Positions 8,334 through 41,518 of a DNA stretch of 41,518 nt are shown here, piece by piece. A program made the translations under genes and the position numbers. How positions within the stretch are numbered: position 1 is the first letter of the stretch; every line of letters starts with the position of its first letter. The notes under the pieces were generated by a model. That model was not told where the DNA came from, searched no databases, and saw nothing but the letters and a program-made list of their open reading frames with translations. Source of the DNA: a virus. The stretch covers positions 1 through 41,518 of IMG/VR virus record IMGVR_UViG_3300010430_000157. One strand, given 5' to 3'.

Positions 8334-9326
8334 TTAGGCTACCAATTCCAGCGCGCTATCGAATGCGCGCGCTTTCAGGGTTGCGCCGTGGCCAAACTGG
8401 CCAGAAGAAAAGCGATTTTCTGGCGTGCGTGATACCGTGGAAAAATCGATAAAGTTGGTTACGGCGTTCATAAGACCCCACGCGGTGCCGTCTGCGCTTT
8501 CCAGATCAGAACCCGGCCCGCTACGGTATGCATGCATCAATTTCCCTGTAACGGCTTTTAAGGTGCGCTCATTGACTACATTGTTTTGCTCATCCGTTTT
8601 AGCATAAAGACCGATAAAATAATTTATCGCCTGTTCATCGGTGACGCGTTGCGCCGCCAGTGCATCAGCATCAGCCGCGAACGTTTCCAGCCGCTCATCG
8701 ACTAAGCCCAATTCCGCCTTGACCTGATCGGCGTCAAACTGGCGGGAATGGGGTACCTTGATCGATGCACGGCCGCCGTTATGGCCAACTGCCATGCTCA
8801 AGGTGTTATTGCAGACTACCCGGACAGTCGTAAAATCGGCGATTGTGGCCATGGTGCCATCGTTGGCCGTGGCTAGTAACAAGTAAGGTTTCAGAATGTC
8901 GCGGCCGTTGCCAAGCTTAAGATCAAGATTGCAACGCGCCAAAGCCCAAACCTTAGCGCCGCCATTCAACGCGCCCGCCGTTTCAATACTGAAGCGGGAA
9001 CCACTTACCAGATCGCGGTAAAATTCCAAGGTGTCGCCGGGTTGCATCAATTGGAAACGATTGCTGCCAATTCCCAGATGTGCCTGCGTATCGCTGCGTA
9101 CGTGTGCAAAGCGATCAGGGATAACCATCGGCTCGCGGCTGCCGTCACTGTTTTCGACGCCGTAAAATATCGGCCGTTTCTGTATGTGCCAGTCTAAACC
9201 GGCTGCCGTTTTCCATTCTTCTATACTCGCATCGGCATTGATGCGCTGGCCAAGTCCGTGCCAAGGAAGTTTCCCGGTGAATGCCATATTGTCGCGGTCG
9301 TTTGAACTATCGATTAAATGTGCCAT
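8334..9326 (-). CDS. DUF932 (phage/plasmid-like TIGR03299) protein
   Basis: 330 residues, full length for the family. Recognisable features are the N-terminal GKLPWHGLGQRI with A.IEEWKTAAGLDW, then RFAHVRSDTQAHLGIGSNRF and a central LLLATANDGTMA with TVRVVCNNTLSMAV. DUF932 proteins are common on phages and plasmids, but their molecular role is not established. The gene has its own promoter copy (9367..9405), a (CA)9 leader and an AGGAAAC Shine-Dalgarno, so it is probably strongly and separately expressed early in infection. Confidence 0.88.
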   Translation of the reverse strand: MAHLIDSSNDRDNMAFTGKLPWHGLGQRINADASIEEWKTAAGLDWHIQKRPIFYGVENSDGSREPMVIPDRFAHVRSDTQAHLGIGSNRFQLMQPGDTLEFYRDLVSGSRFSIETAGALNGGAKVWALARCNLDLKLGNGRDILKPYLLLATANDGTMATIADFTTVRVVCNNTLSMAVGHNGGRASIKVPHSRQFDADQVKAELGLVDERLETFAADADALAAQRVTDEQAINYFIGLYAKTDEQNNVVNERTLKAVTGKLMHAYRSGPGSDLESADGTAWGLMNAVTNFIDFSTVSRTPENRFSSGQFGHGATLKARAFDSALELVA

Positions 9327-15924: not shown

Positions 15925-16184
15925 TTTTAGAGCCAATCTCCATCGCGACGGGCGGCTATATTGGCATCGGACCCGGTACGGATTACTGTCCGCTGCCGCT
16001 GGCGATTGGTTCAGACGGCTACATACGGTTTGAAGTAACGCCGCCATGGCCCGGCGATGACCCGTTTGGTGGTGGTCACGGTGCTGTAATACTGGAACCG
16101 AGACATTTCCGGCGTGAAGATTTCACGGAAACCGAACAGCTTGCATTACTCGCCATTTTCGCTATTAACGAAATGGATGAATGA
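15921..16184 (+). CDS. Small hypothetical protein
   Basis: 87 residues, ATGA-coupled at both ends. Gly/Pro-rich first half (ATGGYIGIGPGTDYC) and an acidic helical end. Possibly a structural accessory of the fibre cluster; no family recognised. Confidence 0.65.
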   Translation: MILEPISIATGGYIGIGPGTDYCPLPLAIGSDGYIRFEVTPPWPGDDPFGGGHGAVILEPRHFRREDFTETEQLALLAIFAINEMDE

Positions 16185-16381
16185 CGTACAACGATGACAA
16201 TGACCCAACCGGATATTACAGACGAAAGCAAAAGAAAAACGATGAGTACATGGATAAAGTGCTTTTCCCGTTTTTCAAATGGGCAATCGTCTTGCTGGCC
16301 GTTGTGGTGGTGGTAGATTTGGTTCGTGGCTGTATCAACTCCACGGCGAGCGCATGCCCACATATATTGGCAACTCGATAG
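16181..16381 (+). CDS. Small single-pass membrane protein
   Basis: 66 residues. A charged N-terminus (DDNDPTGYYRRKQKKNDEYM) is followed by one transmembrane helix (FFKWAIVLLAVVVVVDLV, about residues 31-48) and a short tail. ATGA overlap with the previous gene. It is one of the few holin- or spanin-sized membrane proteins in the genome, but nothing beyond topology supports a lysis role. The 3' end overlaps the sulfotransferase-like gene by 56 bases. Confidence 0.65.
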   Translation: MTYNDDNDPTGYYRRKQKKNDEYMDKVLFPFFKWAIVLLAVVVVVDLVRGCINSTASACPHILATR

Positions 16382-16862
16382 CCAATTAGCGATCGGAGCC
16401 ACGGAAAAGGCGGCAATGACATCGATACAATTCGCGCTCAACCGGTGTCGAAGGCTCACACCCGAACAGGTACACCAGCGCAAGCTGTGCGTGCGGCTGT
16501 ATCTGCGCCATCCGATTACCCGATTTGCCAGCGCGTATGCGTATTTTGCCCCTAACGACAACTTTCCAGTGCAACGCAGCCGCCCGGCTGATTTATTGGC
16601 GAAAGCGCCAACGCTGGAACAGTTTACCGATGCCATACTGGCCGGTATGTGGAATGAGCATTGGGGACCGCAGCTCGAACAGCACGATGCCGTGGGCATC
16701 GATGAGCTGTTCAAGATGGAAGATATCGCGACATCGTGGCCAAAACGTTACCCGCTCACGCATCAAAACAAGGGCCGTATCGCCAAGCCCGACATCACGT
16801 ACCGCAGAGGCGATTTAGAGGATTACTATCAGAGGGATTTAAACGCATGGCTCGCCACCTAA
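16326..16862 (+). CDS. Compact sulfotransferase-like protein
   Basis: 178 residues from GTG 16326; ATG 16416 would remove the nucleotide-binding loop, so I keep the longer frame. Sulfotransferases move sulfate from PAPS to an acceptor. The 5'-phosphosulfate loop is seen as LAIGATEKAAMTSIQFAL (K28, T32, S33; the usual Pro before Lys is Glu27). The 3'-phosphate strand-helix is LYLRHPITRFASAY (R61, S69, Y71). A later EHWGPQ (112-116) and DELFKMEDI match the C-terminal part of Sulfotransfer_2-type bacterial enzymes. It is shorter than typical family members. It sits between the fibre cluster and TerS, so the acceptor might be a glycan on the host surface, but this is a guess. Confidence 0.58.
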   Translation: MAVSTPRRAHAHIYWQLDSQLAIGATEKAAMTSIQFALNRCRRLTPEQVHQRKLCVRLYLRHPITRFASAYAYFAPNDNFPVQRSRPADLLAKAPTLEQFTDAILAGMWNEHWGPQLEQHDAVGIDELFKMEDIATSWPKRYPLTHQNKGRIAKPDITYRRGDLEDYYQRDLNAWLAT

Positions 16863-17407
16863 GAATGTTTCCAGCACCCACCACGTTCGCCGCGCCCGAT
16901 GGTGAAACCCGGCTACGCCCGGCCACAGGGCACCGGTATAACGATGCGCTGGCGCGTAAGATTTGCGAAAAGATCATGCACAAGCAGAGTCTGAAAGAAA
17001 TCTGCAAAGACCCGCGCTATCCGAATCTATCAACCGTGATTCGCTGGCTGGCCAAGCCCGAACTGACCGCGTTCAGAGAAATGTATTATTACGCGCGCCG
17101 CGTGGCGGCTGAGTTGTACGTCGATGAGATTTTTGAAATTGCCGACGATGGCAGCAACGACTGGAAACCGCGACACGACAAAGACGGTGGGCTGATCGAT
17201 TACGTGCCCGATCAGGAAGCCATCCAGCGCAGCCGGGTACGCATTGACGCCCGCAAATGGTACGCCGCTCGGATGGTGCCGAAAATCTACGGTGATAAAG
17301 TGGATGTCGGACTGGATGTGACCGGCGATCTGGCTGAGCTGCTGAAAAAGGCCAGCAATAACGACACCGGGCTGCCTAAGCCAATCGAGCACGATGACGA
17401 TGACTGA
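16847..17407 (+). CDS. terS: Terminase small subunit
   Basis: 186 residues from ATG 16847 (AGAGGG ten bases upstream). It recognises phage DNA and loads the terminase. A helix-turn-helix-like N-terminus (YNDALARKICEKIMHKQSLKEICKDP, then LSTVIRWLA) is followed by the typical middle REMYYYARRVAAELYVDEIFEIAD. A C-terminal RSRVRIDARKWYAARMVPKIYGD completes the family pattern. It overlaps TerL by 14 bases. The open frame upstream to 16736 is shadow. Confidence 0.88.
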   Translation: MARHLRMFPAPTTFAAPDGETRLRPATGHRYNDALARKICEKIMHKQSLKEICKDPRYPNLSTVIRWLAKPELTAFREMYYYARRVAAELYVDEIFEIADDGSNDWKPRHDKDGGLIDYVPDQEAIQRSRVRIDARKWYAARMVPKIYGDKVDVGLDVTGDLAELLKKASNNDTGLPKPIEHDDDD

Positions 17408-40276: not shown

Positions 40277-41518
40277 ATGGAACACAGTCATGTTATGGGC
40301 GGCTCAACAGCCACCCAAAGGATCAACTGTCTACTTAGCCTTACCCTAGAACAACAAGCGCCACCAAAACCCCAATCTGATTACGCCATCCAGGGTAATG
40401 TATTCCATTCAGCCATGGAACTGTTGCTGACTGCCTTGGACCCTGAAAGCGCTAACTATGAAAAAGAGTATCGAAAAGCGCTCAAAGATTTAGAGGGGCA
40501 AGATTTAGGCTATGGCGAGCAGTGGGCGATTACGCCGGAACAAATCAAGACCAAAATCATGCCCGCGTGGCACGCTTTCGTTCAGGTTTTAAGTGCCTAT
40601 GATCTACAGGATTGGTTTATCGAGCAGCGCGTGTCGCTTGAGGAAATCATACCCGGCGCGTTTGGCACGTCTGACCTCATTGGTATCGATATCAATAATC
40701 GCCTGCATGTATTGGATTGGAAATTCGGCGAAGGTGTGTCAGTAGGTGTTGAGGGCAATATGGCGTTGGCGTTTTACGCTGCCGCCGCACTTTACGATAC
40801 CGAACCGGAATTGGTGGAATTTTGCTCAGACATTACCGGTATCGTGTTCCACATTGTGCAGCCGCGTAGCGGTAGCGATCAAGTGCTATGGACATGGGAA
40901 ACCGATGAAAACTTTATCGAGGCGTTCGTAGATCAGGCCAGCGACGCCATGGAAAAGGCGCAACAGCCGAACCCACCGGCCAAGACCGGCGATTGGTGCC
41001 GCTGGTGCGCCGCTAAGCCGATCTGCCCGGCTTACAGCGAGCTGGCTTCCGAAGCGTTGAGCAAACCGCCTAAGAGCATGACAGCCGTGGAGCTGGGCCA
41101 CTGGCTCAGTGTCGCCGAACAGCTTAAAAGTTGGATCGATGACCTGTACACGCTCGCACAGGGGGAAATGGAAACCGGCGTGGCCGTGCCAGGATACAAA
41201 CTTGTACAAAAACGCGCCAGCCGGTCATGGGTTAATGAGGCGGCAATAGCCACGATTTTGCGGCGGCGAAAAATCAAAATCAATGAAATCTATAAGCGTA
41301 CGTTACTGTCACCCGCGCAAGCGGAAAAGAAGTTACCAAAACTGTATAGCAAGGTATTAGCCGATCTTGTAGAATCAAAAAGTTCCGGCCTCACAGTGGT
41401 GAGCGATACGGATAATAGGGCGGCGGTTACTAGCACCATGGATTTATTGGCTAACGCGCTCCCACAACAGCAAACAGCAGACAGCAGACAGCAAACAGGA
41501 AACAGGAGCAGCAAACCA
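40277..41518 (+). CDS. DUF2800 RecB/Cas4-like nuclease (continues at 1..126)
   Basis: ATG 40277; 414 residues when joined across the ends. PD-(D/E)xK nuclease core: H44, GTSDLIGID (D133), HVLDWKFGEG (D147, K149), Q/Y helix near 165. Four cysteines, C18 and C241-C244-C250 (WCRWCAAKPICPAYS), match the arrangement that holds a [4Fe-4S] cluster in AddB/Cas4-type nucleases. It probably acts on DNA ends or ssDNA in replication/recombination. Neighbours are the basic-tailed protein (coupled by ATGA) and the polymerase. The C-terminal 40 residues are low complexity. Confidence 0.88.
   Translation, partial: MEHSHVMGGSTATQRINCLLSLTLEQQAPPKPQSDYAIQGNVFHSAMELLLTALDPESANYEKEYRKALKDLEGQDLGYGEQWAITPEQIKTKIMPAWHAFVQVLSAYDLQDWFIEQRVSLEEIIPGAFGTSDLIGIDINNRLHVLDWKFGEGVSVGVEGNMALAFYAAAALYDTEPELVEFCSDITGIVFHIVQPRSGSDQVLWTWETDENFIEAFVDQASDAMEKAQQPNPPAKTGDWCRWCAAKPICPAYSELASEALSKPPKSMTAVELGHWLSVAEQLKSWIDDLYTLAQGEMETGVAVPGYKLVQKRASRSWVNEAAIATILRRRKIKINEIYKRTLLSPAQAEKKLPKLYSKVLADLVESKSSGLTVVSDTDNRAAVTSTMDLLANALPQQQTADSRQQTGNRSSKP
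41396..41518. repeat. Terminal direct repeat, right copy
   Basis: Identical to bases 1..123. See the left copy. Confidence 0.95.

Follow-up and report, generated by a model that had tools for sequence, protein, structure and literature searches.

A compact sulfotransferase homologue without the family histidine loop, encoded ahead of the small terminase gene in a P22/Sf6-like podovirus

The protein encoded at positions 16326 to 16862 of the viral record IMGVR_UViG_3300010430_000157 is related, as judged by its profile similarity and motifs, to enzymes which transfer sulfate onto sugars, but has diverged strongly from them. Phage sulfotransferases as such are known; what is new is a homologue with the same fold which lies outside the thresholds of Pfam and PHROGs and which is devoid of the histidine-bearing loop of the family. 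The most satisfactory explanation overall, for which the chances appear about even, is that the gene is a late moron coding for a PAPS-dependent sulfotransferase, most likely one that would sulfate a glycan of the host envelope or surface.

Genome context and conservation of the gene

The window, i.e., the whole analyzed stretch of 41,518 nucleotides, is on sequence grounds a P22/Sf6-like podovirus, with recognized genes for DNA polymerase, primase, helicase, portal, scaffold and a terminase small subunit (TerS) of the Sf6 type. An exact direct repeat of 123 bases is carried at both ends (1-123 and 41396-41518), and the 41-kb record is therefore probably a complete genome. The integrase family PF00589 has no match in this phage. 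A DUF932 protein (8334-9326, minus strand; PF06067, phrog_1221) is found among small minus-strand ORFs which lack family matches.

The gene under study had been placed, in an earlier sequence-only reading, between the fiber cluster and TerS, and it is indeed preceded by a 671-aa fiber gene and small ORFs, its end running into TerS. Its relatives occur in two IMG/VR contigs, L001 and L002, which are identical to each other over the gene and code for a protein of 170 aa with 62-64% amino acid identity to the window protein. In both contigs the gene has the same position and shares 16 nt with TerS. The features of the region are the following, in window coordinates:

16181..16381, plus strand: upstream small ORF of 66 aa, its last 56 nt shared with the beginning of the sulfotransferase ORF
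16326..16862, plus strand: ORF of the compact sulfotransferase-like protein, 178 aa, start GTG 16326, stop TAA 16862 included
16395..16427, plus strand: 5'-phosphosulfate (P-loop) signature GATEKAAMTSI, residues 24-34, aligning to PK(T/C)(G/A)GTSI of homologues and conserved in L001
16407-16409, plus strand: codon of K28, the P-loop Lys
16452..16505, plus strand: short connector, residues 43-60, joining the P-loop helix with the strand of the 3'-phosphate site; the conserved His loop of homologues is missing from it
16506..16544, plus strand: 3'-phosphate signature RHPITRFASAYAY (R61, S69), in which R61, P63 and S69 do not vary among 66 sequences
16656..16673, plus strand: EHWGPQ element, residues 111-116, aligning to H..PQ of homologues
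16701..16727, plus strand: DELFKMEDI element (ELFKMED, residues 127-133), equivalent of D-F-I-G-R-F-E-N-L
16755..16775, plus strand: LTHQNKG element, equivalent of LPHxNKS
16847..16862, plus strand: last 16 nt of the ORF, shared with the probable TerS start and preceded by AGAGGG at 16831-16836; L001 has an overlap of the same length
16847..17407, plus strand: TerS (Sf6-type; PF20901, E 2e-35; phrog_1482), the downstream gene in the putative late operon

The 66-aa ORF contains a hydrophobic segment which is probably membrane-spanning, and has no family match in Pfam or PHROGs. A long form of the TerS ORF (16736-17407) opens at GTG 16736; the true start is probably ATG 16847, since conservation in L001 points there. 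The overlap is exactly equal in L001, which suggests that the sulfotransferase ORF may be co-translated with TerS in a late operon.

Comparison with L001 over 166 aligned codons shows differences at 101 third positions, as against 46 and 38 at first and second positions, and the codon changes comprise 54 synonymous and 65 nonsynonymous ones; dN is 0.29 and dS is saturated across the ORF. The +0 frame is the sole stop-free frame and is also the best conserved. The ORF is, by these measures, a conserved and translated gene rather than a product of chance, and purifying selection on it is strong throughout, with EHW, H146/N148 and the region of the C-terminal helix included. An antisense ORF (16076-16714, minus strand), open in the window and also present in L001, could be taken for the real gene, with the plus frame open by chance, yet this reading is vanishingly improbable and was rejected: amino acid identity is 62% in the plus frame versus at most 52% in the antisense frames, the BLOSUM score per residue is 3.2 versus at most 2.3, the antisense frames have stops across the aligned region, and a known family is matched by the plus frame only.

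The 178-residue frame with its listed motifs is present as first described. It had been conceded at that time that translation starting only at the in-frame ATG 16416 would remove the 5' loop. Codons 14-30, which lie 5' of this ATG and include P-loop codons, are conserved like the remainder (dN 0.23, dS 2.8), and L001 has Ala and no ATG at this position, such that translation evidently starts upstream of 16416. The protein had also been called shorter than usual, and its 178 aa do stand at the short end, since other phage sulfotransferases are mostly of 183-240 aa. The GC3 of the ORF (0.61) equals that of TerL, and the gene is therefore not a compositional newcomer.

Related phages identified through TerL (L009-L012 and L015) have no sulfotransferase gene before TerS; the gene in this place, where recognizable, is holin-like or another small late gene. 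Two further related phages (L004:750-1304 and L005:1386-1925) have a different moron in the lysis-TerS region, flanked by endolysin-like and holin-like genes; it is cupin-like or 2OG-Fe(II) oxygenase-like, and in L005 it matches phrog_81. The region can thus be viewed as a moron slot. A 354-aa protein without a PHROG match (L015:2412-3476) also lies between endolysin-like and holin-like genes, and its HGTHRAFDTFERG stretch resembles, by eye, ADP-ribosyltransferase-like phage proteins.

Homology, predicted fold and PAPS-site residues

The profile search proposed by the sequence-only reading does give a match to PF03567 (Sulfotransfer_2), but at 14.9 bits for the window protein and 15.4 bits for L001, below the gathering cut-off of 22 bits. 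By this curated cut-off the protein is outside PF03567 and should not be filed as a member. Profile searches with the window protein in PHROGs and NCBIfam returned nothing useful, the phrog_3347 HMM matched neither the window nor the L001 protein, and phmmer and an A1 profile found no sulfotransferase in the PDB. The search for close relatives of the window protein in phage records, plasmids and GTDB genomes gave nothing usable, and likewise a scan of GTDB genomes with TerL.

As the Pfam match was below threshold and PHROGs and NCBIfam were uninformative, a comparison set of 16 sulfotransferases from phages and plasmids was built, 15 of which match PF03567; a self-written sulfotransferase consensus served only as bait for fetching real sequences. 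In hhalign, the window/L001 pair aligned with this set over residues 18-175 with 97.6% probability (E 3e-12), versus at most 2.4% for 100 column-shuffled copies and 3.9% for the reversed pair. The sulfotransferase HMM scored 20.7 bits with the window protein and 24.3 with L001, the best of 10,000 residue shuffles reaching 10.5. The profile similarity to accepted PAPS-dependent sulfotransferases covers the full domain, and the motifs are all colinear with those of the relatives. Another ORF considered as a family member, L049:5203-5682, was discarded, since it obtained 10-11 bits with the family HMMs but only 1.9% in hhalign, a chance level.

AlphaFold2 gave a pLDDT of 36 when supplied with two close homologues only, and a pLDDT of 87.2 with a pTM of 0.82 upon addition of 64 further viral homologues, most of them from an IMG/VR scan for Sulfotransfer_2 relatives. 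As its alignment consists of sulfotransferases, the model and the homology claim depend on each other in part. The best 50 PDB rows obtained with VIA-align were all sulfotransferases, covering up to 149 of the 178 residues with Z up to 7.5, a score which, being under 8, is weak if taken alone. The top rows include heparan sulfate 3-OST, NDST1 and 6-OST, with SULTs within 1 Z unit. In BFVD, the matches at probability 1.0 were mostly named viral sulfotransferases, and Foldseek against the PDB gave no E below 0.001, such that the informative fold comparisons were those with BFVD and the re-alignment by VIA-align. The alpha/beta sulfotransferase core, whose absence was to have spoken against the original proposal, is present in the model and its PDB matches.

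The window protein is almost certainly homologous to the sulfotransferases and shares their fold, and the candidate status first accorded to it is upheld by the hhalign result, the model and the PAPS-site residues. A chance resemblance of motifs in an orphan phage protein that is not a sulfotransferase would agree with the sub-threshold Pfam score and with the lack of a phmmer match to PDB sulfotransferases, but it is very improbable in view of the clean shuffled controls, the colinear motifs and the fold matches.

Both PAPS-binding signatures initially discerned are retained and aligned: K28, T32 and S33 provide the Lys and Thr/Ser of the 5' site in the sequence alignment, and R61 and S69 provide the Arg and Ser of the 3' site in invariant columns of the 66-sequence alignment, RHPITRFASAY being residues 61-71. 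Conserved columns are also occupied by E132, H146 and N148. The Glu noted at the position ahead of the P-loop Lys, where Pro is usual, is genuine (Glu27): Pro occupies this position in 51 of 64 viral homologues, and Glu is found in one other homologue among the 64 that were aligned.

The missing histidine loop

The distance from K28 to R61 is 33 residues in the window protein, versus a median of 51 in its relatives. Of 79 relatives, 74 carry a His at 14-29 residues on the N-terminal side of the 3'-site Arg, and both the window protein and L001 have a gap at the column which holds His in 58 of the 66 aligned rows. The window protein is hence without the His upstream of the 3'-phosphate site which, as the putative base, belongs to the catalytic site of the HS2ST (heparan sulfate 2-O-sulfotransferase) and Sulfotransfer_2 type. 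The family His aligns with the GHV of HS2ST, in the region of the catalytic base, and is presumably the equivalent of His142 itself in HS2ST numbering. For this putative catalytic base of HS2ST, the H142A mutation leaves less than 1% of the activity, while PAPS binding is kept (PMC6094399). The shortness of the window protein is mostly due to deletion of the His-bearing loop; the compactness described in the sequence-only reading is thus real, but that reading overlooked the conserved loop that it removes.

The sulfotransferase of CBW1004C-Prop1 (MZ188970 gp47, 176 aa), a P22-like prophage, is likewise without the His loop, with a K-R spacing of 32 versus 33, and the TerS of this prophage is the first-ranked phage-database match to the window TerS. 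Its IMG/VR relatives, L088/L089, show 23-24% identity to the window protein (alignment A5). Unlike the window protein, the CBW1004C-Prop1 protein passes the Pfam cut-off, and its gene is located between structural genes downstream of TerL, whereas the window gene precedes TerS.

These features bear on whether the window protein is still an enzyme. It may be inactive, or unable to transfer the sulfuryl group, while still binding PAP/PAPS, and might for instance act as a nucleotide sink, as a regulator or as a structural late protein, since the His loop is gone in both the window and L001 while the PAPS-site residues stay, a state akin to that of HS2ST H142A, which binds PAPS yet loses over 99% of its activity (PMC6094399). 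This is unlikely, although of some weight. The strong purifying selection over the whole length argues against it, as does the CBW1004C-Prop1 branch, whose own lack of the loop points to a compact form that has remained stable instead of decaying. Catalysis, if retained, would need another base. Glu can act as base in other sulfotransferases (NDST/3-OST), and the conserved E27, E47, E111, H112 and H146 are candidates for this role. The window protein is accordingly predicted to be catalytically active by means of a non-canonical base, which we consider fairly probable. A broader proposal is made only tentatively, namely that the window/L001 and CBW1004C-Prop1 lineages may form a minimal active podovirus class without the His loop, which uses another base, is made together with the packaging proteins and alters the host surface late.

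Sulfotransferases in other phages and the proposed function

The initial view that a phage-borne sulfotransferase would be unusual does not hold, as at least 328 places in IMG/VR encode one and a PHROGs family, phrog_3347, exists. Phage sulfotransferases have been listed as auxiliary genes (PMC8290583, PMC10580990), whose role "remains unclear" (PMC10580990). When the 109 proteins encoded in the neighborhood of other phage sulfotransferase genes are compared with Pfam, sugar epimerases, glycosyltransferases and GDP-mannose dehydratase come up most often. Environmental phage contigs contain tandem arrays of two to five adjacent sulfotransferase genes, frequently accompanied by glycosyltransferases and epimerases (L102:174-3425, and also L105, L093, L123 and L144), and at least two such genes are present in 44 of the 78 loci that were examined.

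Members of PF03567, which include bacterial and phage proteins as well as eukaryotic HS2ST and carbohydrate sulfotransferases, have the same fold and order of elements as the window protein, i.e., the P-loop, the 3'-phosphate site, H-W-x-P-Q, an E-N-L-like element and H-x-N-K. The window protein differs from them in the Glu before the P-loop Lys, the lack of the His loop and its sub-cut-off score. The phage moron family phrog_3347, "Galactose-3-O-sulfotransferase", is matched by 64 of the 66 rows of alignment A5; its members are often in tandem within glycan gene clusters, whereas the window gene stands alone before TerS. The 188-aa gp5.1 of the marine podovirus Roseobacter phage SIO1 has the same predicted fold as the window protein (BFVD TM 0.69/0.66), but possesses His residues before the 3'-phosphate site and occupies a different genome location. 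This protein (L171:4688-5254), annotated as gp5.1 only, obtains 56 bits with the sulfotransferase profile and 98.4% in hhalign.

In the favored explanation, the product of a moron gene of the late operon would be a PAPS-dependent sulfotransferase which is reduced to a minimum and belongs to the Sulfotransfer_2-like (carbohydrate sulfotransferase) lineage. PAPS made by the host would be held by the P-loop (K28, T32, S33) and the R61/S69 site, and the sulfuryl group would be passed to a hydroxyl of an acceptor, most likely a glycan of the host envelope or surface, in the phase in which the packaging proteins are made. The receptor may thereby be changed, such that fewer phages are bound by infected cells or debris, resulting in exclusion or release. 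Matches to PF01583 (PAPS-making), PF01507 (PAPS reductase) and PF00535 (GT2) were not found in the window phage, nor was a glycan gene cluster detected around the ORF, and the acceptor is consequently guessed from the relatives; by this analogy, a glycan acceptor has an even chance of being correct.

The acceptor of an active enzyme may instead be a small molecule, a lipid, a tyrosine of a host protein or a protein of the phage virion, for example the nearby fiber. The absence of glycan-synthesis genes around the window gene and the 671-aa fiber gene upstream of it agree with this possibility, and SIO1 gp5.1, a sulfotransferase homologue, is likewise near a tail-fiber gene. However, the phage relatives at large reside in glycan gene clusters, and heparan sulfate enzymes are among the best structural rows, though the closeness of the SULTs tempers the latter point; a non-glycan acceptor is thus a minority view, to which perhaps one chance in four may be conceded.

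The present work adds a diverged branch to the phage sulfotransferases, one missed by the thresholds of both Pfam and PHROGs, in a family with relatives encoded at no fewer than 328 places in IMG/VR. Should the compact form prove to have activity, the catalytic core needed for sulfation would be shown to be very small, and this 41-kb podovirus would offer a single-gene system for the direct study of phage surface sulfation.
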